Positions 964 to 60,245 of a stretch of 63,135 nt of DNA are shown here, in pieces. The notes under the pieces were generated by a model. It did not search any database, was not told the DNA's origin, and was given only the letters and a program-made list of their open reading frames with translations. The translations under genes were made by a program, and so were the position numbers. How positions within the stretch are numbered: the first letter of the stretch is position 1; every line of letters starts with the position of its first letter. Source of the DNA: an uncultured Faecalibacterium sp. (GTDB taxonomy: Bacteria; Bacillota; Clostridia; Oscillospirales; Ruminococcaceae); assembly GCA_904394215.1 (NCBI GenBank), contig CAJFNF010000007.1, forward strand, positions 1 through 63,135. Direction: 5' to 3'.

Positions 964-2331
964 CTGCCCTGCCGGGCCCCCGATCCAGATGGACACCCGC
1001 AGCCCGTGGGGCAGGGCATTCCCAAATTCCAGCCGCCCCTTGTGGGCCCGGACGATCTGCCGCACAATCCGCAGCCCCAGGCCGTGCTCCCCCAGGCTGT
1101 CGGCTTCCCCCGACAGGGGGGTGCCCCGGTTGAGCCGCACCAGCTGGGCCGGGCTCACCCCCACCCCGTCGTCCGCAATCACAAACAGGCACCCGCCCTC
1201 TTTGGCCGGGGCCACCGTCACCGAGATGGCGCAGCCGCCGGGGTTGTGCCGGATGCAGTTGCGCAGCAGGTTCAGCAGCATCCGGTCCACCAGGGCCGGG
1301 TCCGCCGCCACTTCCAGATGGGCCCCCGGCTTTTCCTCGGTGAAGGCGATGCTGTAGCGGTCCTCCAGCCCTTCGTTCAGCACCTCGCTCACCGCCTGCC
1401 GGGCCAGCTCGGCCCCGTCCAGCTTCTGGCAGGTGATGGGCCGCAGGGCGTATTCCAGCCGGGTGGTGAGGTTCAAGTCCGCCACCAGCCTCGTCAGCCG
1501 CTCGGTCTGCCGCCGGATGCTCCCGGCCCGCTGCCGGGCCCAGCCGGGCAGCTCGGGGCTGTCCTCCAGCTCGCTGGCATACCCCAGCATCACCGACAGG
1601 GGGGTGCGGATGTCGTGGGACACCCCCCGGATCCACTCGGCCCGGGTGTTGTCCTTCCGGGTCATGTAGGCCGCCGCCCGGTTCAGGCTGGCGTTGATCT
1701 CGGCCAGCTCCCCCTCTTCCGGCAGGGGCACCGGCCTGCCGTCCGCCAGGCTGCGGATGGCGTTCAGGATGGGCCCCATGGCCTTTTCCACCCGCCGGGC
1801 GCTGTGGATGAACAGCACCACCACCAGCAGGATGTTGCCATAAAAGAGGACGCAGGCCAGCAGGGTCAGGAAGTCCCAGTAGTCCAGCTCCACCGACAGG
1901 TAGTATTTGGCCATCGACCCTTTGGGCCGGCCCACCACCGCAAGGCTGCCGTCCTCCAGGCCCCACACCGTCACCGGCCAGTCTTCCAGGTACCACCGGC
2001 TGAACTGGGCGATCTGGGCCGCAGTGTAGCTGCGGGGCAGGCTGTCGGGCATCTGGTATTCCCACACCGCCTGCCCCGCCGGGTTCAGCACCATGGCCCA
2101 GCACTGGTTCCGGTCCAGCAGGGCCAGCCCCTGGCTGTCCGCCGCCCAGCTGTCCCCCGCCCCCGCCAGGTGGTCGCAGAAGTCGGTGATCTGGAAGCCG
2201 TCCGAGGGGGTGTGGAGCTCGCTGAACCCCAGCAAAATCACCAGCACCGCCATGTTGGCCGCCACCAGCAGACCCAGCAGCCCCACCACCGAGAACACAT
2301 ACCGCCGGAAAAACCGCCGCACCGGGTTCAT
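958..2331 (-). CDS. Two-component sensor histidine kinase
   Basis: Membrane sensor kinase of 457 residues. Transmembrane helices lie near residues 10-36 and 154-177 and bracket an extracellular sensor region of about 115 residues. The H-box GVSHDIRTPLSVMLGY has the phospho-accepting His near residue 237. The N-box (LLRNCIRHNPGG) and G-boxes (IADDGVGVS, GEHGLGLRIV) of the HATPase domain are present. The ATG at 2331 overlaps the stop of the response regulator gene (ATGA), so the two are translationally coupled and surely partners. The stimulus is unknown. The diverging peptidoglycan transglycosylase hints at an envelope role, but that is inference. Confidence 0.92.
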   Translation of the reverse strand: MNPVRRFFRRYVFSVVGLLGLLVAANMAVLVILLGFSELHTPSDGFQITDFCDHLAGAGDSWAADSQGLALLDRNQCWAMVLNPAGQAVWEYQMPDSLPRSYTAAQIAQFSRWYLEDWPVTVWGLEDGSLAVVGRPKGSMAKYYLSVELDYWDFLTLLACVLFYGNILLVVVLFIHSARRVEKAMGPILNAIRSLADGRPVPLPEEGELAEINASLNRAAAYMTRKDNTRAEWIRGVSHDIRTPLSVMLGYASELEDSPELPGWARQRAGSIRRQTERLTRLVADLNLTTRLEYALRPITCQKLDGAELARQAVSEVLNEGLEDRYSIAFTEEKPGAHLEVAADPALVDRMLLNLLRNCIRHNPGGCAISVTVAPAKEGGCLFVIADDGVGVSPAQLVRLNRGTPLSGEADSLGEHGLGLRIVRQIVRAHKGRLEFGNALPHGLRVSIWIGGPAGQL

Positions 2332-3029
2332 CGCTGCTCCCCCCGGGGCAGTTCCAGCCGGTACCCCAGCCCCTTCACCGTCACAATGGACACGGGGCGG
2401 GAGGGGTTTGCCTCCATCTTTTCCCGCAGGTGGCGGATGTGGGTGGCCAGGGTGCTCTCGTACCCCTGCCACACCGGCCCGCACACCGTCTCACACAGGG
2501 CCCCGGTGGTGACGATCCGGCCCGCGTTTTCGTACAGCTTGCGGAACAGCTGCAGCTCCTTGGCGGTAAGGGGGAAGGTCTGGTCCCCCCGGCGCACCGA
2601 TGCGTTTTCCAGGTCCACTTCGGCGGCGGCCAGCCGGACGGTGCGCCCCGGCAGCCGCCCCGTCCGCCGCAGGATGGCCTGGGCCCGGAACAGCAATTCC
2701 TTGGGCAGGAAGGGCTTGGCCAGATAGTCGTCCGCCCCGCTCTCAAAGCCGGTGAATTTGTCCTCCGCCTCGCTGCGGGCGGTGAGCATCAGCACCGGCA
2801 CTGCGCTGGTGCGCCGCAGCTGCCGCAGCACCGCAAAGCCGTCCATCCCCGGCATCATCACATCCAGAATCACCAGGTCGGGCCGGGCCGAGGCGCACAG
2901 GGCCAGGGCCTCGGGCCCCGACCCCGCCGTCAGCACCCGGCCATACCCCGCCCGGGCAAAAATTCCCCGGACCATCTCCCGCAGTTCCGCCTCATCATCC
3001 ACAATCAGGATGGTTCGATCTTGGTTCAT
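2328..3029 (-). CDS. OmpR/PhoB-family response regulator
   Basis: 233-residue response regulator. The receiver domain has the acidic pair DD (11-12), the phospho-acceptor Asp56 (LVILDVMM) and Lys105 (YLAKPF). The C-terminal winged helix ends in the usual VKGLGYRLE signature. It is encoded first in the operon and its stop overlaps the kinase start. The ATG at 3029 sits behind a GAGGTGAAGGG ribosome site; further in-frame upstream ATGs lack one. The intergenic region towards the diverging transglycosylase holds AT-rich half-repeats (AATTTCCC, AAATTTCG) that could be OmpR-type sites, but I could not resolve clean direct repeats. Confidence 0.93.
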   Translation of the reverse strand: MNQDRTILIVDDEAELREMVRGIFARAGYGRVLTAGSGPEALALCASARPDLVILDVMMPGMDGFAVLRQLRRTSAVPVLMLTARSEAEDKFTGFESGADDYLAKPFLPKELLFRAQAILRRTGRLPGRTVRLAAAEVDLENASVRRGDQTFPLTAKELQLFRKLYENAGRIVTTGALCETVCGPVWQGYESTLATHIRHLREKMEANPSRPVSIVTVKGLGYRLELPRGEQR

Positions 3030-3184
3030 ACCCTTCACCTCAGCTGCCATTGTATCACACCCGGGCCCCTGGTGTCTGCGTCCGGGGGCCAATCTCAAGG
3101 GAAATTCAAGCCCCATCCGGCCCCATTCCTTAAATTTCGATGGAAATTGCCCCCGCACCGTAGCCAGGGCCGGCCCTTGTGCGT

Positions 3185-3244: not shown

Positions 3245-3946
3245 ATGAAGATCATCCGAACCTTTTGTACATGGCTGGTGCTGCTGGCCCTGGGTGCGGC
3301 CCTGGTCATCGGGGGCCTGATCACCTTCCAGGGCTGGCGGATGTACCGGGACGCCCTGGCCCGGCAGCCCCTGGCCCAGACGGTGGAGGCCATCCGGGCC
3401 CAGCCCGGCTACACCCCCCTCAGCGGCCTGCCCCAGATTTACCTGAACGCCGTCATCGCGGTGGAGGACCACCGCTTCACCCAGCACGGGGGCATCGACC
3501 CCATTGCCATCGCCCGGGCCACTTTCCACGACATTGCCACCCGCAGCCTGGACCAGGGGGGCAGCACCATCACCCAGCAGGTGGCGAAAAATTTGTTTTT
3601 CACCCAGGAAAAGAAGTTCTCCCGGAAAATCGCCGAGGTGTTCATGGCCTTTGCCCTGGAGCGCAGCTACACCAAGGGGGAGATCCTGGAGCTGTACGTC
3701 AACACCATCTACTTCGGGGACGGGTACTACGGGGTGTCCGCCGCCTGTGCCGGCTATTTCGGCAAGGCCCCCGGCCAGCTCACCGACTATGAGGCCACCC
3801 TGCTGGCAGGGATCCCCAACGCCCCCTCGGTCTACTCCCTCAGCGCCAACCCCGACCTGGCCGCCCAGCGCCAGGCCTATGTGGTGGGCCAGCTGGTGAA
3901 GTACGGCTACCTCACCGATGAAGAGGCCGCCGCCATCACCCCCTGA
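3245..3946 (+). CDS. Monofunctional peptidoglycan transglycosylase (GT51)
   Basis: Membrane-anchored glycosyltransferase of 233 residues that polymerises lipid II into glycan strands. One N-terminal membrane helix (about residues 8-28) is followed by a GT51 domain with the signature blocks AVEDHRFTQHGG (catalytic Glu74), QGGSTITQQVAKN and ERSYTKGEILELYVN. There is no transpeptidase domain, so it is the monofunctional MtgA/SgtB type rather than a class A PBP. The ATG at 3245 follows a GAGGT ribosome site. It is divergent from the two-component operon. The repeat at 4002-4134 lies between it and its terminator and would be co-transcribed. Confidence 0.9.
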   Translation: MKIIRTFCTWLVLLALGAALVIGGLITFQGWRMYRDALARQPLAQTVEAIRAQPGYTPLSGLPQIYLNAVIAVEDHRFTQHGGIDPIAIARATFHDIATRSLDQGGSTITQQVAKNLFFTQEKKFSRKIAEVFMAFALERSYTKGEILELYVNTIYFGDGYYGVSAACAGYFGKAPGQLTDYEATLLAGIPNAPSVYSLSANPDLAAQRQAYVVGQLVKYGYLTDEEAAAITP

Positions 3947-3950
3947 ATCA

Positions 3951-3988
3951 AAAAAATCTCAGCCGGACGACATGTGCGTACGGCTGAG
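3951..3988 (-). terminator. Minus-strand terminator after the UppS-like gene
   Basis: Arms CTCAGCCG (3958-3965) and CGGCTGAG (3981-3988). Read on the minus strand the hairpin is followed by ATTTTTTT. It would stop transcription from the 4.2-5.3 kb genes before it enters the transglycosylase gene. Confidence 0.6.
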
Positions 3989-4001
3989 ACACCTACAGGG
4001 C

Positions 4002-4134
4002 AAACACAGCGACCGCGTCCTGCGGACGAAAGAGGGAGCTGTGTTTGGCGCAGCGCTCCGGTTTTTGCAAGCACCCACTGCGGTGCGCCGCAAAAATCGG
4101 CTAAGGCAAGAGGATAAACTTTCCCCCTAAAGCG
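4002..4134 (+). repeat. Structured interspersed repeat, copy 1
   Basis: First of three copies of a two-hairpin element. Hairpin 1 has outer stem AAACACAGC/GCTGTGTTT (4002-4010/4038-4046) and inner stem CGTCC/GGACG (4016-4020/4024-4028). Hairpin 2 has outer stem CCGGTTTTTGC/GCAAAAATCGG (4058-4068/4090-4100, one G-U) and inner stem GCACC/GGTGC (4071-4075/4082-4086). A short tail TTCCCCCTAAAGCG (4121-4134) also recurs near copy 3. It lies in the transcribed 3' region of the transglycosylase gene. Stems in the other copies carry paired substitutions, which argues for a selected RNA or DNA structure. Function unknown. Confidence 0.8.
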
Positions 4135-4165
4135 CCGTCCGGCTGGATGCCGGGCGGCTTTTTTG
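4134..4165 (+). terminator. Terminator of the transglycosylase transcript
   Basis: GCCGTCCGGC (4134-4143) pairs with GCCGGGCGGC (4149-4158; one G-U) and is followed by TTTTTTG. Confidence 0.8.
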
Positions 4166-4179
4166 TATCCCGGGGTGCC

Positions 4180-4821
4180 TCAGCCACCCAGGGTCACATC
4201 CTGTTTCTGGTACCAGTCCAGGGCCTGCTGGAAGTCCCCGGGCTGGAAATCGGGCCACAGCCGGTCCACCACGAAAAAGTCGGCGTACACCGACTGCACC
4301 GGCAAAAACCCCGACAGCCGCCGCATCCCGCCCCAGCGGATCACCAGGTCCACCCGGGAGATGTCCCGGGTCCGGAGGCCGTCCAGGATGCGGCTGCGGC
4401 TGGCCCCGGGCCGGTCCAGCCCGGCAAGGTCCCATTCCCAGCCGTAGTTCACCAGGAAGTTCACCCGGATCCCCCCGCCGTTGAAGTCGGTGCGGGTCAG
4501 GTAGGGCCGCAGCGGCGCCGGGAAAAACGGGGACGCCCCGTCCCCCGCCACCAGCAAGGACACCGGCTGCTCTGCGATCCGCTCCACCGCCTGGACGCAG
4601 GCCTCCGAAAAGGCCGCCACCTGGGCGGCGGGCCGGCGGCAGTTGTCGGTGGTGAAGCCGTAATAGGTCAGTTCCTGCACCCCGGCGTCCCGGGCCAGCT
4701 CCAGCAGCTTGACCCCCGGGGCCAGCCCGTGGGCGTAGCCCTCCTGTTTTTCCATGCCGGCGCCTTTGGCCCACCGGCGGTTTCCGTCGGGAATGATCCC
4801 GATGTGATTGGGTATCCGCAT
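4180..4821 (-). CDS. Short UppS-like cis-prenyltransferase (isoprenyl transferase)
   Basis: 213 residues, related to undecaprenyl diphosphate synthase, which condenses isopentenyl diphosphate onto farnesyl diphosphate to make the lipid carrier for wall precursors. It starts with PNHIGIIPDGNRRWAKGAG (catalytic Asp in DGN), keeps a TYYGFTTDNCRRP block and ends with RRLSGFLPVQS and DRLWPDF. It is about 35-40 residues shorter than typical UppS, and the usual NYGGR block reads NYGWEWDL. It is therefore a divergent family member, perhaps a second paralogue with another chain length. The ATG at 4821 follows AAGGGGGGAT. It lies 43 bp after the HicB-like gene on the same strand. Confidence 0.78.
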   Translation of the reverse strand: MRIPNHIGIIPDGNRRWAKGAGMEKQEGYAHGLAPGVKLLELARDAGVQELTYYGFTTDNCRRPAAQVAAFSEACVQAVERIAEQPVSLLVAGDGASPFFPAPLRPYLTRTDFNGGGIRVNFLVNYGWEWDLAGLDRPGASRSRILDGLRTRDISRVDLVIRWGGMRRLSGFLPVQSVYADFFVVDRLWPDFQPGDFQQALDWYQKQDVTLGG

Positions 4822-19046: not shown

Positions 19047-19082
19047 CAGTATACCACGGCAGGGGGAAAAAATGGTATACTG
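19047..19082. promoter_or_regulatory. Palindromic divergent promoter region (fbp / radical SAM gene)
   Basis: CAGTATACC (19047-19055) and GGTATACTG (19074-19082) are perfect inverted repeats 18 bp apart. Each arm contains TGGTATACT on its outward strand, that is an extended -10 element, one facing fbp and one facing the radical SAM gene. Neither has a good -35. The symmetry could also be an operator. Confidence 0.55.
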
Positions 19083-19128
19083 TTGGCAGAAGGAATCTGT
19101 AAATCTTTTGGAAGGGACTTTATGCACC

Positions 19129-20049
19129 ATGTCTAGTTCTCGTACGTTTGAAATCCCCAGCTGCTGCACCCTCTGTCCCCGGAGCTGCGGCGCCGACCGG
19201 GCCGCCGGCCAGGCGGGCTACTGCGGCGCCGCCGGTACCCTGAAGGTGGCCCGGGCCGCCCTGCATTTCTGGGAGGAGCCCTGCATCAGCGGCACCAAAG
19301 GCAGCGGCACCGTCTTTTTCTCGGGCTGTTCCCTGCGGTGCTGCTACTGCCAGAACTATCCCATCAGCGCCCAGGCCTTCGGCAAGGAGATCACGGTGGA
19401 GCACCTGGCGGAAATATTCCTCAGCCTCCAGGCCCAGGGGGCCCACAACATCAACCTGGTGACCCCGGGCCAGTGGCAGCCCTGGATCATGGCAGCCCTG
19501 GACCAGGCCCGGGCCGGGGGGCTCCGCCTGCCCATCGTCTGCAACACCGGCGGCTACGAGACGGTGGAGAGCGTGGAGGCCTGGCGGGGCTACATTGACA
19601 TCTGGCTGGCGGACCTGAAATACGCCTCCCCCGACCTGGCCCAAGATCTGTCCGCCGCCCCCGACTATCCCCTGGTGGCCAAAGAGGCCATCCAGGCCAT
19701 GATGGCCCAGGCGGGGCATCCGGTGATGGACGCCGACGGCATCCTGCAGCGGGGGGTGATCCTGCGGCATCTGGCCATCCCGGGGCACATCGACGACAGT
19801 TTCAAGGTGATTGACCAGATGGCGGCCTGGAATGACGCCGACCCGGGCTGTTTCATTCCCAGCCTCATGAGCCAGTTCACCCCCTTTTACCAGGCGGCCC
19901 AGCACGGCATCGGGCGCCGGATCACCACCTACGAGTACCGCCGGGTGGTGAACTACGCCATGGACAAGGGCCTCACCGCCGGCTACATGCAGCAGAAAAG
20001 CAGCGCCCGGGAAGAATACACCCCCAGCTTCGACCTCACCGGCGTCTGA
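19129..20049 (+). CDS. Radical SAM protein, PflX-like (PFL-activase related)
   Basis: 306 residues. An N-terminal Cys-rich stretch (CCTLCPRSCGADR, residues 12-23; YCG at 31) precedes the radical SAM cluster motif GCSLRCCYCQNYPIS (Cys67, 71, 74). The following KEITVEHLAEIFLSLQAQGA and NLVTPGQWQPW blocks are those of COG1313 (PflX) rather than PflA. The substrate protein is unknown; no glycyl-radical enzyme gene is nearby. The ATG at 19129 is used because the earlier ATG at 19122 runs into a stop after four codons. The stop codon is the first triplet of a 42-bp repeat. Confidence 0.82.
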   Translation: MSSSRTFEIPSCCTLCPRSCGADRAAGQAGYCGAAGTLKVARAALHFWEEPCISGTKGSGTVFFSGCSLRCCYCQNYPISAQAFGKEITVEHLAEIFLSLQAQGAHNINLVTPGQWQPWIMAALDQARAGGLRLPIVCNTGGYETVESVEAWRGYIDIWLADLKYASPDLAQDLSAAPDYPLVAKEAIQAMMAQAGHPVMDADGILQRGVILRHLAIPGHIDDSFKVIDQMAAWNDADPGCFIPSLMSQFTPFYQAAQHGIGRRITTYEYRRVVNYAMDKGLTAGYMQQKSSAREEYTPSFDLTGV

Positions 20050-20257: not shown

Positions 20258-20725
20258 CTAAACCCACCCGCCGCCCTTAGATGAATCCCCCGGCCTGCGG
20301 CCGCGCCCCTGCCGGGGCTCGGAACTTTTAGCTGCTCCCTCTGTTTGCAGGCTTCGCAGCAGCCGCAAAGCCCCCTGACCGGCCCGGCCATCCCCCGGAA
20401 AAGGCGCATTTTGCCTTACCCTCCGGTACCCGCAGCCCAGATCCAGAGGAAGCAGTTCCCCGGCCCGGAGACCCTTTTTCCTCTATTGGCATTGTCTCAG
20501 TGAAAAGCACCCCGCAGCGCAAACCCAGAAGGAGAAGCTCTCGGCCAGTCCCCCCGAAGGGGGGATGCCGCACAGCGGCAGGGGCAAACACAGCGACCGC
20601 ATCCGGTGGATGAAACAGGGAGCTGTGTTTGGCGCAGCGCTCCGGTTTTTGCAAGCGGGCCACGTCCCGCACCGCAAAAATCGGCTAAGCACAAGAGGGG
20701 CTAAAAGGGCGGTGGGCGGGTTTAG
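20258..20725. mobile_element. MITE-like element with 21-bp terminal inverted repeats (468 bp)
   Basis: The left end CTAAACCCACCCGCCGCCCTT (20258-20278; 21 positions) and the right end, read inverted at 20705-20725, match at 19 of 21 positions. The interior holds GC-rich hairpins (ggccgcgcccctgccgggg region; CCCCCCGAAGGGGGG at 20550-20564) and the second copy of the structured repeat. No transposase is encoded. A shorter relative lies at 45142-45383. I see no clear target duplication. Confidence 0.65.
20586..20700 (+). repeat. Structured interspersed repeat, copy 2
   Basis: Same two hairpins as at 4.0 kb. Outer stem 1 AAACACAGC/GCTGTGTTT (20586-20594/20622-20630) is identical. Inner stem 1 is CATCC/GGATG (20600-20604/20608-20612) instead of CGTCC/GGACG. 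Outer stem 2 is identical (20642-20652/20674-20684). Inner stem 2 is GCGGG/CCCGC (20655-20659/20666-20670) instead of GCACC/GGTGC. Both differences keep pairing. This copy sits inside the terminal-repeat element. Confidence 0.8.
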
Positions 20726-20798: not shown

Positions 20799-21575
20799 TC
20801 AAATTTCAATGGTATCCCCTGTGGACAGATACCCCAGCCGGCCCATGTAGTCCTTCATAAAGGCATACTGCTTGCGGCCGGTGCAGTGGCAGGTGTAAAA
20901 CCGGGTGCCCGAAGCATCCAGTTCCCGGGCGTACCCCGCCAGGGTGTCGTCCAGGGGCAGGGTGTTGAAATGGAATCCCCCCACCAGCACGTCCGGCTTG
21001 AACCAGTCCACCAGGTTCAAAATCCCCTTGTGGGAACAGCCGCTGATCAGCACCCGCTTGTCCCCTTCCCGGATCAGCAGATAGTGCTCGTGGCGGAAAT
21101 CCTCGGGCCGGAAGGCCCCGCCCTCCTCCACTGTCAGCCCAAAGCTGCCCAGGTCTTTTTCCTTCTCTTTGCCGTTGCAGGTGGAGAGGGTCAGCCCCGG
21201 GGCGAGTTCCGCCTGGTCGTCCACAAAGCGCAGCCGGGGGCTGGAGGCCAGGGCCGGGTCCAGCCCGATGTACCGCTCTGTCCCGTGGTAGTGGGGCTCG
21301 AAGGCGTGGCGGTTCAGGTAGACCGGGGCGGTCTGGTTCAGCTCCAGAAATTTGGCCAGGCCGCCGCCGTGGTCGTAGTGGCCGTGGGACAACACCGCCA
21401 GGTCCGCCTGTCCCAGGTCGATGCCCAGCGCCGCCGCGTTCCGGGCAAACAGGTCGGTCTGGCCCATGTCAAAGAGGATCCGGTGGCCCAGGGCCTCGAT
21501 CCACAAAGACAGGCCGTGCTCTTTGCCCAGCGCCTCGCTGGACGTGGTGTTTTCCACCAGTGCTGTGATCTTCAT
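20799..21575 (-). CDS. Metallo-beta-lactamase-fold protein (dihydropterin synthase-like branch)
   Basis: 258 residues. VLSHGHYDHGGGLAKFLE supplies the HxHxDH zinc motif (near residue 63), ISGCSHKGILNLVDW a further metal His, and the CHCTG near the end another. The layout, with an N-terminal VENTTSSEALGKEHGLSLWI and GCSHKG block, matches the group annotated as 7,8-dihydropterin-6-methyl synthase-like (MptN/COG1237). True substrate unknown. It stands alone, convergent with the repeat-rich gap and divergent from thiT. Confidence 0.8.
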   Translation of the reverse strand: MKITALVENTTSSEALGKEHGLSLWIEALGHRILFDMGQTDLFARNAAALGIDLGQADLAVLSHGHYDHGGGLAKFLELNQTAPVYLNRHAFEPHYHGTERYIGLDPALASSPRLRFVDDQAELAPGLTLSTCNGKEKEKDLGSFGLTVEEGGAFRPEDFRHEHYLLIREGDKRVLISGCSHKGILNLVDWFKPDVLVGGFHFNTLPLDDTLAGYARELDASGTRFYTCHCTGRKQYAFMKDYMGRLGYLSTGDTIEI

Positions 21576-21726: not shown

Positions 21727-21743
21727 GGGCTTTGGACATGAAA

Positions 21744-21890
21744 ACAGGGGCGCCGAAAGGCTGAGATCCGTGCAAGCGGAGTACCCTCGAACCTGATCCG
21801 GGTAATGCCGGCGTAGGTAAGTTTGCGGAACGTCCCGTTTTGTGAACAAACCCCAGGCGCCTGCTGCAGAGCGGGCGCCTTTTGTTTTTG
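21744..21890 (+). ncRNA. TPP riboswitch with terminator expression platform
   Basis: Conserved THI-box blocks GGCTGAGAT (21769-21777), ACCCTCGAACCTGATC (21783-21798) and GGGTAATGCCGGCGTAGG (21800-21817) form the aptamer. Downstream AGGCGCC (21855-21861) pairs with GGGCGCC (21873-21879), followed by TTTTGTTTTTG. This is a terminator that should form when thiamine diphosphate is bound, shutting off the transporter. Confidence 0.95.
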
Positions 21891-58584: not shown

Positions 58585-59091
58585 ATGGAACACAAACCCA
58601 CCCTGAACATCGTCCTGGTGGAGCCCCGCATCCCCCAAAACACCGGCAATGTGGCCCGCACCTGCGCCTGCACCGCCTGCCGGCTCCATCTGGTGGGGCC
58701 CATGGGCTTCACCATCGACGATAAAAAATTAAAGCATGCAGGGCTTGACTATTGGCCCATGCTTGATATAACATATTATCAGGGCCTCGATGATTTTTTT
58801 GCAAAGAACAAAGGCCCTTTCTACTACTTTTCGACCAAGGCGCCCCGCCGCTACACCGACGTGTCTTACCCCGACGGGGCGTACCTGGTCTTTGGCCGGG
58901 AGGACAAGGGCTTGCCCGAGTCCCTGCTGGCCGCCAACCAGGACTGGTGCATCCGCCTGCCCATGCGGGAAGGCTGCCGCAGCCTGAATCTCTCCAACAG
59001 CGTAGCAGTGGGCGTCTATGAGGTACTGCGCCAGTGGGACTTTCCCGAACTGCTGGACCACGGCCATCTGCGTGATTACCAATGGAAATGA
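58585..59091 (+). CDS. trmL: tRNA (cytidine(34)-2'-O)-methyltransferase TrmL
   Basis: 168 residues, the usual TrmL length. SPOUT signatures: LNIVLVEPRIPQNTGNVART, LVFGREDKGLPE and IRLPMREGCRSLNLSNSVAV (the knot). It methylates the wobble base of tRNA-Leu isoacceptors using SAM. CTGGAGGAAA precedes the ATG. Confidence 0.94.
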   Translation: MEHKPTLNIVLVEPRIPQNTGNVARTCACTACRLHLVGPMGFTIDDKKLKHAGLDYWPMLDITYYQGLDDFFAKNKGPFYYFSTKAPRRYTDVSYPDGAYLVFGREDKGLPESLLAANQDWCIRLPMREGCRSLNLSNSVAVGVYEVLRQWDFPELLDHGHLRDYQWK

Positions 59092-59099
59092 GGATTACT

Positions 59100-59969
59100 A
59101 TGAACAAAATCGCGATCCTGACCGATTCCTCCTGCGACATTCCCCAGTCGCTGGCTGAAAAATACGGCATCGATATCATGAGCTTCCACATCATGCTGGA
59201 CGGCACCGACTATGTGGAGCGGGTCAGCTGCACCAACGAGGAATTCTACGGCCTGATGCGCCAGGCCAAGGGGGTGCCCTCCACCGCCGCCATCACTCCC
59301 ATCCAGTTCTGTGAGAAGTACTGCGAGTATGTGGACGCCGGCTACACCGACGTGGTCCACATCTCCATCAACCGCACCGGTTCCTCCACCTATGACAACG
59401 CCGTCATGGCCCAGGGGATGCTGCGGGAAGAGCGCCCCGAGCACAAGATGCGGATCCACCTGCTGGACAGCCACACCTATTCCATGGTGTTTGGCTGGTA
59501 CGTCTGCGAGCTGGCCCGGAAACTGCGCAACGGCGCCGAGCTGCGCCACGTCCTCAGCGAGTTTGAGGACCAGATGGCCAAGATGGAAATCATCCTGGGA
59601 CCCTACAGCCTGCGCCAGATGAAGAAGAGCGGCCGCATTTCGGCTGCCGCCGCCTTTGCCGGCGAGCTGCTGGGCCTGCGCCCCATCATCACCCTGATCG
59701 ACGGCAAGACCAATGTGGCCAGCAAGGTCCGCGGGGACGACAAGGTGATCCCCGCCATGGTGGACCTGTGCAAAAAGCGGACCGAAGGTGTGGAAGATTT
59801 TGAATATATGATCGGCCACACCAAGATCAAGCAGGCCGAGGACCTGCGGAAGGCCTGCAAGAAGGCTTTCGGCAAGGAGCCGCTGATCCTCTTTGAGCTG
59901 GGCGGCGCCGTCTCCTCCAACACCGGCCCCGACACGGTGGCCATCGCCTATGTGGGCAAGGCCCGTTAA
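59100..59969 (+). CDS. DegV-family fatty-acid-binding protein
   Basis: 289 residues. ILTDSSCDIPQSLAEKYGID opens the fold; TSAAITPIQF-like (PSTAAITPIQFCEKYCEYVD), SINRTGSSTYDNAV and GRISAAAAFAGELLGLRPII are the DegV/FakB blocks that hold the acyl chain. FakB proteins present fatty acids to FakA; no FakA is in the window. ATG 59100 overlaps the trmL downstream region with TGAGGA as ribosome site. Confidence 0.92.
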   Translation: MNKIAILTDSSCDIPQSLAEKYGIDIMSFHIMLDGTDYVERVSCTNEEFYGLMRQAKGVPSTAAITPIQFCEKYCEYVDAGYTDVVHISINRTGSSTYDNAVMAQGMLREERPEHKMRIHLLDSHTYSMVFGWYVCELARKLRNGAELRHVLSEFEDQMAKMEIILGPYSLRQMKKSGRISAAAAFAGELLGLRPIITLIDGKTNVASKVRGDDKVIPAMVDLCKKRTEGVEDFEYMIGHTKIKQAEDLRKACKKAFGKEPLILFELGGAVSSNTGPDTVAIAYVGKAR

Positions 59970-59996: not shown

Positions 59997-60057
59997 CACG
60001 CTTTAGGGGGAACCCATTTCTGCGCGCATACGCGACAGAGATGGGTTCCCTGTTTTT
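59997..60057 (+). terminator. Terminator of the pdx-trmL-degV unit
   Basis: GGGAACCCATTTCTG (60008-60022) pairs with CAGAGATGGGTTCCC (60036-60050; near perfect), then TGTTTTT. The CGCTTTAGGGGGAA (60000-60013) at its edge also occurs, inverted, beside repeat copy 1 (4121-4134). Confidence 0.85.
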
Positions 60058-60100
60058 GCGGCAGGTGTCGCAACGCCCTTGCAAAAGACAGACCGCTGTC

Positions 60101-60212
60101 CTCTTGCGCTTAGCCGATTTTTGCTGCGCACCGCGGTGGGTGCTTGCAAAAACCGGAGCGCTGCGCCAGCGGCGGCTCCCTGTTTCGTCCACTGGACGCG
60201 GTCGCCGCCGCT
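60101..60212 (-). repeat. Structured interspersed repeat, copy 3 (inverted)
   Basis: Read on the minus strand: outer stem 1 AGCGGCGG/CCGCCGCT (plus 60205-60212 and 60168-60175) replaces ACACAGC/GCTGTGT of the other copies with pairing kept. Inner stem 1 CGTCC/GGACG (60194-60198 and 60186-60190), outer stem 2 CCGGTTTTTGC/GCAAAAATCGG (60146-60156 and 60114-60124), inner stem 2 GCACC/GGTGC (60139-60143 and 60128-60132). The single-stranded CGAACAGGGAG-type and GGCGCAGCGCT segments are conserved. It lies antisense to both neighbouring genes. Confidence 0.8.
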
Positions 60213-60213
60213 G

Positions 60214-60245
60214 CCCCGGCTGCAAAGCCGGGGTTTTCTTTTGCG
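60214..60245 (+). terminator. Hairpin with U tail beside repeat copy 3
   Basis: CCCCGGCT (60214-60221) pairs with AGCCGGGG (60226-60233), then TTTTCTTTT. Confidence 0.7.

Follow-up and report, generated by a model that had tools for sequence, protein, structure and literature searches.

Faecalibacterium is an abundant gut genus, and several kinds of known element offer points of comparison for the repeat analysed here. The hairpins of IS200/IS605 elements are simple bulged structures. Group IIC introns and IS110 elements with bridge RNAs rely on structured RNA or DNA and insert next to hairpins or into repeats. Integrative elements that target tRNA genes leave an intact tRNA on one side and a partial tRNA copy on the other, mostly on the same strand. 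In the accessible portions of two sources, the BOX elements of Streptococcus pneumoniae are modular, variable-length, mobile-type repeats (PMC3049150), and the REP/RAYT definition requires a 20-40 bp palindrome that bears a terminal GTAG or CGTC tag (PMC3733652).

The window, a stretch of 63,135 nucleotides from an uncultured Faecalibacterium sp., contains copies of a folded repeat. Like REP, REPIN and BIME sequences with their RAYT/TnpA-REP proteins, as presented in the accessible portion of that literature, it is a short, high-copy, intergenic hairpin repeat found in mosaics, for which mobilisation in trans is hypothesised. It differs in measuring 115 nt and having two unlike domains in place of 20-40 bp palindromes, in the lack of any Y1 gene found in its own genome or in genome G023 of the same genus, and in the tRNA gene fragments that adjoin it in other genera. 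In the alignment, the unit starts with GGC, ends with AAGAGG and carries a GTAG or CGTC tag at neither end.

Similarly, non-autonomous derivatives of IS200/IS605 resemble the element in having hairpins close to both ends, a polar insertion that follows a short motif (here only GG), no visible duplication, head-to-tail copies and strand-specific structure. However, its internal loops and closing helix are unlike simple bulged hairpins, no TnpA was found in the own genome or G023, and no replichore bias was seen. The likeness to BOX elements, as modular, mobile-type repeats, is one of description in the accessible part of the source. Group IIC introns and IS110 elements are comparable in their use of structured RNA or DNA and their insertion beside hairpins or into repeats, but the element is 115 nt long and has no Rfam match, and neither the own genome nor G023 yielded a reverse-transcriptase or IS110 domain. 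To our knowledge, BOX elements have no association with tRNA genes.

As with integrative elements at tRNA sites, a direct repeat of part of a tRNA gene flanks the unit in 25 of 33 tRNA-near copies outside the genus; however, these units span about 150-270 bp, their break points fall in several tRNA arms, and the folded element sits directly at the broken copy in 25 of the 33. Since units of this size leave no room, no integrase gene lies within the element. Classical MITEs differ in their terminal inverted repeats, absent here (the ends GGCA and AAGAGG are not complementary), and in their target-site duplication, which was not seen. The element works like REP/BIME and IS200-derived hairpin elements, yet departs from their definitions in having no tag and no Y1 gene found in the own genome or G023; nor is it a classical MITE, an IS110 element by genome content, or an Rfam family.

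That the repeat matched no recognised RNA class, as first proposed, agrees with Rfam 15, which gave no gathering-score match to the element in the window and 20 further loci. A relaxed search returned a best E of 0.12, far below the cut-off, and for a type-2 copy nothing up to E 1. No description of the element was found in the literature searched, of which the accessible part leaves room for it among the thousands of unnamed candidate RNAs behind PMC8040213, and none was found of intergenic hairpin mosaics in Faecalibacterium. Beyond the preliminary description, the element is a mobile-type repeat of order-wide occurrence that, in other genera, often has tRNA gene fragments next to it.

Copies in the window and their fold

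Alignment with relatives defines a unit of about 115 bases, from GG to AAGAGG, with a two-domain fold common to all three copies in the window. Domain A comprises a 10-bp stem (outer stem 1, either CAAACACAGC/GCTGTGTTTG or CAGCGGCGGC/GCCGCCGCTG), a G-A/G-A internal loop that is our reading of the alignment, two pairs, an asymmetric loop (G versus AAACA), a 5-bp inner stem and a triloop. Domain B starts with the closing helix GCGCT/AGCGC, which has a 3-nt bulge (CTA) on its 3' side, and continues with a stem of 11 bp; an AA/GCC internal loop separates this from the inner stem, after which comes the tail ending in AAGAGG. In the closing helix, copy 1 lacks one base and copy 2 has one broken pair.

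The preliminary description reported a three-copy repeat at 4002-4134, 20586-20700 and 60101-60212. The copies are real and their strands correct, but there are far more than three (79 in the own genome by the structure model), and the ends required correction to 3999-4113 (+), 20583-20698 (+) and 60100-60215 (-); the end at 4134 lay 21 bases too far, inside the remnant of another repeat. All inner and outer stems and linkers named there are found in the sequence of the three copies, although parts of the supposed linking segments pair with each other as the closing helix GCGCT/AGCGC. The features are as follows.

3999..4113, + strand: copy 1, 115 nt (R1 and R2 model matches; fold z -3.5)
3245-3946, + strand, and 4180-4821, - strand: neighbours of copy 1, a transglycosylase gene and an undecaprenyl diphosphate synthase gene (gene calls, Pfam)
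4001..4047, + strand: hairpin A of copy 1 (covariation per pair; G-A pairs read from the alignment)
4053..4107, tail to 4113, + strand: domain B of copy 1 (RNAalifold; pair counts)
3958..3998, + strand: remnant of module E (CTCAGCCGGACGACATGTGCGTACGGCTGAGACACCTACAG), another repeat, directly upstream of copy 1 (by eye)
4121..4132, + strand: module F remnant (TTCCCCCTAAAG), with copy 1 before it and a terminator-like hairpin after it at 4134-4165 (by eye)
20583..20698, + strand: copy 2, 116 nt (model matches; fold z -4.4)
20585-20631 and 20637-20692, + strand: hairpin A and domain B of copy 2
19072-20049, + strand, and 20799-21575, - strand: convergent genes on either side of copy 2 (gene calls)
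60100..60215, - strand: copy 3, 116 nt (model matches; fold z -6.3)
60167-60213 and 60106-60161, - strand: hairpin A and domain B of copy 3
59082-59969, + strand, and 60325-60416/60427-60966, + strand: neighbours of copy 3, a DegV-family gene and a preQ1-III riboswitch with the QueT gene (gene calls, Pfam, Rfam)
60043..60099, - strand: piece of a repeat from a second subfamily, whose B-type hairpin and tail are similar (..CAGCGGTCTG..CAGGGAACCC; by eye against L035 and L031)

At the G023 ortholog of the copy 1 site (L154), modules E and F are present and the element is absent, as judged by eye, and L075 is a candidate unfilled paralog of the copy 2 site. The second-subfamily piece directly behind copy 3 has the look of a nested arrangement. 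No tRNA gene lies close to the window copies, the nearest being 1.3 kb away. The Rfam search placed the PreQ1-III riboswitch adjoining copy 3 upstream of the QueT transporter gene, and a TPP riboswitch elsewhere in the window, at 21736-21837.

Copy number and genomic placement

The repeat and its fold are not products of chance: a search at the DNA level returns 57 places within the own genome, 32 of them near full length, and the structure model finds 79 copies. Within the genus, 29 of 31 genomes have structure-model matches at E 1e-5, with counts, among at most 119 candidates scored per genome, that range from 0 in G020 and G021 to a maximum of 92 in G023. Both the own genome and G023 are drafts, 93% and 89% complete, respectively. 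Model R1 matches 16 of the 148 genomes of the family, and the broader model R2 matches 89 of 295 genomes and 47 of 148 genera of the order, own genome included. Outside the genus, 1-10 copies per genome were counted among the matches listed, with at most 12 candidates scored in each. At least 80 collection loci were listed, 66 of them from Faecalibacterium (F. gallinarum, sp. An122 and several Candidatus species); one of the 14 others listed passes the core-plus-tail scan, though it lacks domain A. The copy nearest to a given copy comes from the same genome in 79 of 118 cases, against 25 expected, as in lineage-specific amplification or homogenisation.

Placement was assessed with 44 own copies, namely 43 of the 48 own model matches plus one regex match, excluding five partial or contig-edge matches. 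In all of them, any overlap with a predicted gene stays below 20 nt. With unknown neighbours left aside, the 5' neighbour gene is on the same strand in 21 cases and the opposite strand in 16, and the 3' neighbour in 11 and 24, respectively; the latter counts led us to reject a cis-regulatory leader. The own copies have no replichore bias when match coordinates are counted from an assumed origin.

Many copies belong to mosaics in which, by eye, module E lies upstream, module F downstream, and a second subfamily of similar fold takes part. Tandem head-to-tail copies have one GG in common (..AAGAGG followed directly by CAAACAC..). The second subfamily was also seen by eye nested within a copy, between domains A and B and behind ..TTGG, and the reverse nesting occurs too. 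Module E itself (GGACGACATGxGCGTACGG..CACCTACAGGGAAATTT..TTTTGTCCCCAGGGG) is a structured-looking repeat present at L031 915-1035, L035 6118-6228 and L154, and a similar stretch exists in another genus (L227). In some same-genus genomes (L191 and L194), the element lies within a different repeat with ends like AACCTCTCCGTC and CTGAGAGGTT; right ends of this host repeat also occur in L204 and L208.

Filled and empty sites

The left edge is GG in 109 of 119 full-length own-type copies. There is one clean orthologous pair: L201 (G030) is filled and L256 (G029) is empty, their flanks agree at 86% over 507 bases and 94% over 497 bases, and the difference is the element plus a few right-hand bases. 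A candidate empty counterpart was available for 29 copies, and GG stands at the junction in 20 of these empties, as judged by eye; apart from L201/L256 and the permease site described below, such pairs are mostly repeat paralogs whose right junctions are often off by a few nucleotides. Because the flanks are themselves repeats and a looser comparison is noisy, the analysis was restricted to strict joins. Neither L201/L256 nor the host-repeat pairs read contain a target-site duplication, as the GGs at the two edges amount to no more than a 2-base match. We considered and dropped a preference for GGs that directly follow a hairpin, since these are not enriched: a hairpin lies within 2 nt in front of 21 of 44 insertion GGs and of 897 of 1488 other intergenic GGs.

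A second informative locus is the permease site, where gene 1 encodes an ABC permease (Pfam BPD_transp_1) and the product of gene 2 looks like an N-acetylneuraminate lyase. The element is present in 11 of 25 loci (one interrupted) and absent from 14, and six genomes of the genus yielded no such locus. In G014, G029 and G030, all of the same genus, a closely similar permease is found and the site is without the element. At L275 (G012), other sequence breaks into the copy within the domain A loop, and L266, L271, L273 and L276 carry tandem extra copies of domain B with the 3' arm of domain A.

Covariation

The paired changes had been taken as the mark of a folded RNA or of a DNA element recognised by its structure, and this is supported by covariation in every set of copies counted as well as at one orthologous site. 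Among 86 distinct copies, 95.1% of cells are paired, compared with 33-42% when partners are slid, and 23 of 38 pairs have changes on both sides. These copies derive from 130 regex matches (41 own, 89 other) after removal of duplicates and of copies with fewer than 7 of 10 outer-stem matches, and helix 1 is biased in this set because copies were selected partly by outer-stem pairing. Changes on both sides occur in 27 of 38 pairs of the type-2 set (25 matches), 33 of 38 of the mixed set (61 copies) and 32 of 38 of the order-wide set (54 copies), but the model used to select and align all three gives credit for pairing.

The orthologous permease site provides the cleanest and freest set. Ten of its 11 genomes were reached through the neighbouring permease gene and one, G084, through the model, and MAFFT alone made the alignment. 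Pairing is 96.3%, against 33-51% with slid partners, and 12 of 35 pairs are doubly changed. One-site pairing over many species exceeds the needs of a passive insert, which counts against a mobile element; because pairing is maintained across species there, the permease-site copies may also serve as structured RNA.

Such maintenance is what a cis-acting structured RNA would display, one that is co-transcribed with genes or tRNAs, stabilises, processes or terminates transcripts, and is spread solely by being carried along in recombination. Taken by themselves, the ten same-genus rows keep the fold with 335 of 348 cells paired and 8 doubly changed pairs, and outside the genus the tRNA-near copies lie on the strand of the tRNA in 31 of 33 cases. 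One strand also folds better: z-scores for copies 1-3 are -3.5, -4.4 and -6.3 in the sense direction and -2.1, -3.0 and -2.8 in reverse, the sense value being better in all three. On the sense strand, G-T cells outnumber A-C cells by 55:15, 46:10 and 17:3 in three sets, with a single pair contributing 27 of the 55 in the first set, about half of that excess. However, gene orientation around own-genome copies is irregular on both the 5' side (21 same, 16 opposite) and the 3' side (11 and 24), three genomes (G014, G029, G030) do without the element beside a closely similar permease, and copies per genome vary from 0 to 92, so that this explanation appears rather unlikely. The folded repeat may act as RNA or as DNA.

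Association with tRNA genes outside the genus

Forty regions from hit genomes, picked before their context was viewed, together with eight further loci gave a sample of 48 loci from 47 genomes outside Faecalibacterium. In 30 of these, a tRNA gene is found no more than 300 bp from the element, compared with 72 of 3423 control windows placed more than 800 bp from the element at the same loci; 18 have no tRNA within 300 bp. The 30 loci provide 33 tRNA-near copies, three loci with tandem copies being counted twice. A same-strand fragment of that tRNA lies at most 3 nt in front of or 15 nt behind the element in 25 of the 33, and a control with a different tRNA gave 1 of 33. Twelve pieces lie in front, ending at 17-20, 26, 35-37 or 63, and 15 behind; two copies have pieces on both sides. 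In addition, 11 of the 33 copies are preceded by an antisense copy of the tRNA, 14-28 nt long (control 0).

At L298, L343 and L328, the order is an intact tRNA with a terminator-like hairpin, the antisense arm, the element, and the 3' part of the tRNA with another terminator-like hairpin. At L319, L321, L330 and L333, upstream sequence and a tRNA 5' part are followed by the element and an intact tRNA, and at L312 and L336 a tRNA-Ser copy is split by the element. Where a fragment stands next to an intact tRNA, it looks as if the element had entered one of two tRNA copies or had arrived with a tRNA piece. Locus L333 also has two Gut-1 RNA (RF01706) matches, 2298-2374 (+) and 2420-2478 (-); they lie behind the tRNA-Ala gene, a 5' fragment of which adjoins the element.

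The inverted tRNA copies resemble the products of template switching, and pairing could in part come from conversion or template switching instead of selection. A spread free of any enzyme would have tandem duplication, unequal recombination, gene conversion and template switching at hairpins during replication both distribute the copies and keep them paired. The tandem blocks of tRNA 3' half, terminator and element at L328 are consistent with it, as is the similarity of copies to others of the same genome. However, template switching would also erase the internal loops, which persist in the alignments, and the same fold at unrelated sites requires some form of dispersal. Permease-site copies are moreover unlike the other copies read in G002 and G003, which is evidence against homogenisation. 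Together we consider such a spread improbable.

Mobility at the RNA level, with the folded RNA joining cleaved tRNAs or other structured RNAs before being copied back to DNA, would accommodate the 10 of 12 front pieces whose last position is 17-20 or 35-37, in the regions of the D and anticodon loops, the 10 of 15 rear pieces that reach the tRNA's last base, as tRNA halves do, and the end-to-end template switching of group-II-type reverse transcriptases, but it is very improbable given the DNA-level flanks of the broken tRNA copies (upstream sequence or a terminator, for instance) and the absence of RVT_1 from 18 of the 31 genus genomes, which include the own genome and G023 besides 16 others.

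Candidate movers and proposed mechanism

With a probability of roughly 0.5, the repeat is a non-autonomous mobile element whose folded single strand is recognised by an enzyme acting in trans. Polar insertion, the lack of a duplication, the GGs at the edges, the nested and tandem arrays and the strand-specific fold suggest that the predicted enzyme would recognise the folded strand and join the 5' end of the element behind GG. Copies would then arise by insertion and not by loss or duplication, and a unit ending in GG would re-create its own target; as such a unit brings a new target with it, head-to-tail arrays would be explained.

Three candidates for the mover were rejected. Y1_Tnp has no match in the own genome or G023, both drafts, and matches in 11 of the 31 genus genomes, several of them drafts. 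DEDD_Tnp_IS110 is absent from the own genome and G023; it is present in 10 of 31 genus genomes, with none in G000, G023, G004, G010, G022 and G024. A reverse transcriptase was discarded on the RVT_1 absences given above. An autonomous version, in which a gene would separate the hairpins, was not recognised among the 57 own-genome DNA matches. Of the 12 left halves, 8 have a right half no more than 190 bp away, and the other four comprise two at contig ends, one full structure match and one truncated copy beside a gene. At L250 (G030), an element at 3017-3130 (+) lies about 190 bp from an IS200-like tnpA frame at 3315-3719 (-), nested in another repeat (..GTAGGAATGTCTACCGGGAGG..) that is present twice there.

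A more specific proposal, which we regard as speculative and doubtful, is an order-wide new kind of mobile element: its folded strand would invade tRNA genes and hairpins, the adjoining antisense arm copy (11 of 33) would act as a target guide, an intact tRNA would be left, and in Faecalibacterium the element would have escaped tRNA genes into a genome-wide hairpin mosaic.

Implications

A covariation-backed fold, covariance models and an order-wide range make this family directly testable. If strand folding is how it moves, the REP and IS200 schemes would not cover this non-autonomous mobile element, which would often reside at tRNA genes; if it acts as RNA, it would be a widespread structured RNA absent from Rfam. 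Either way, it would help to explain the repeat mosaics, and probably the contig breaks, in these genomes.
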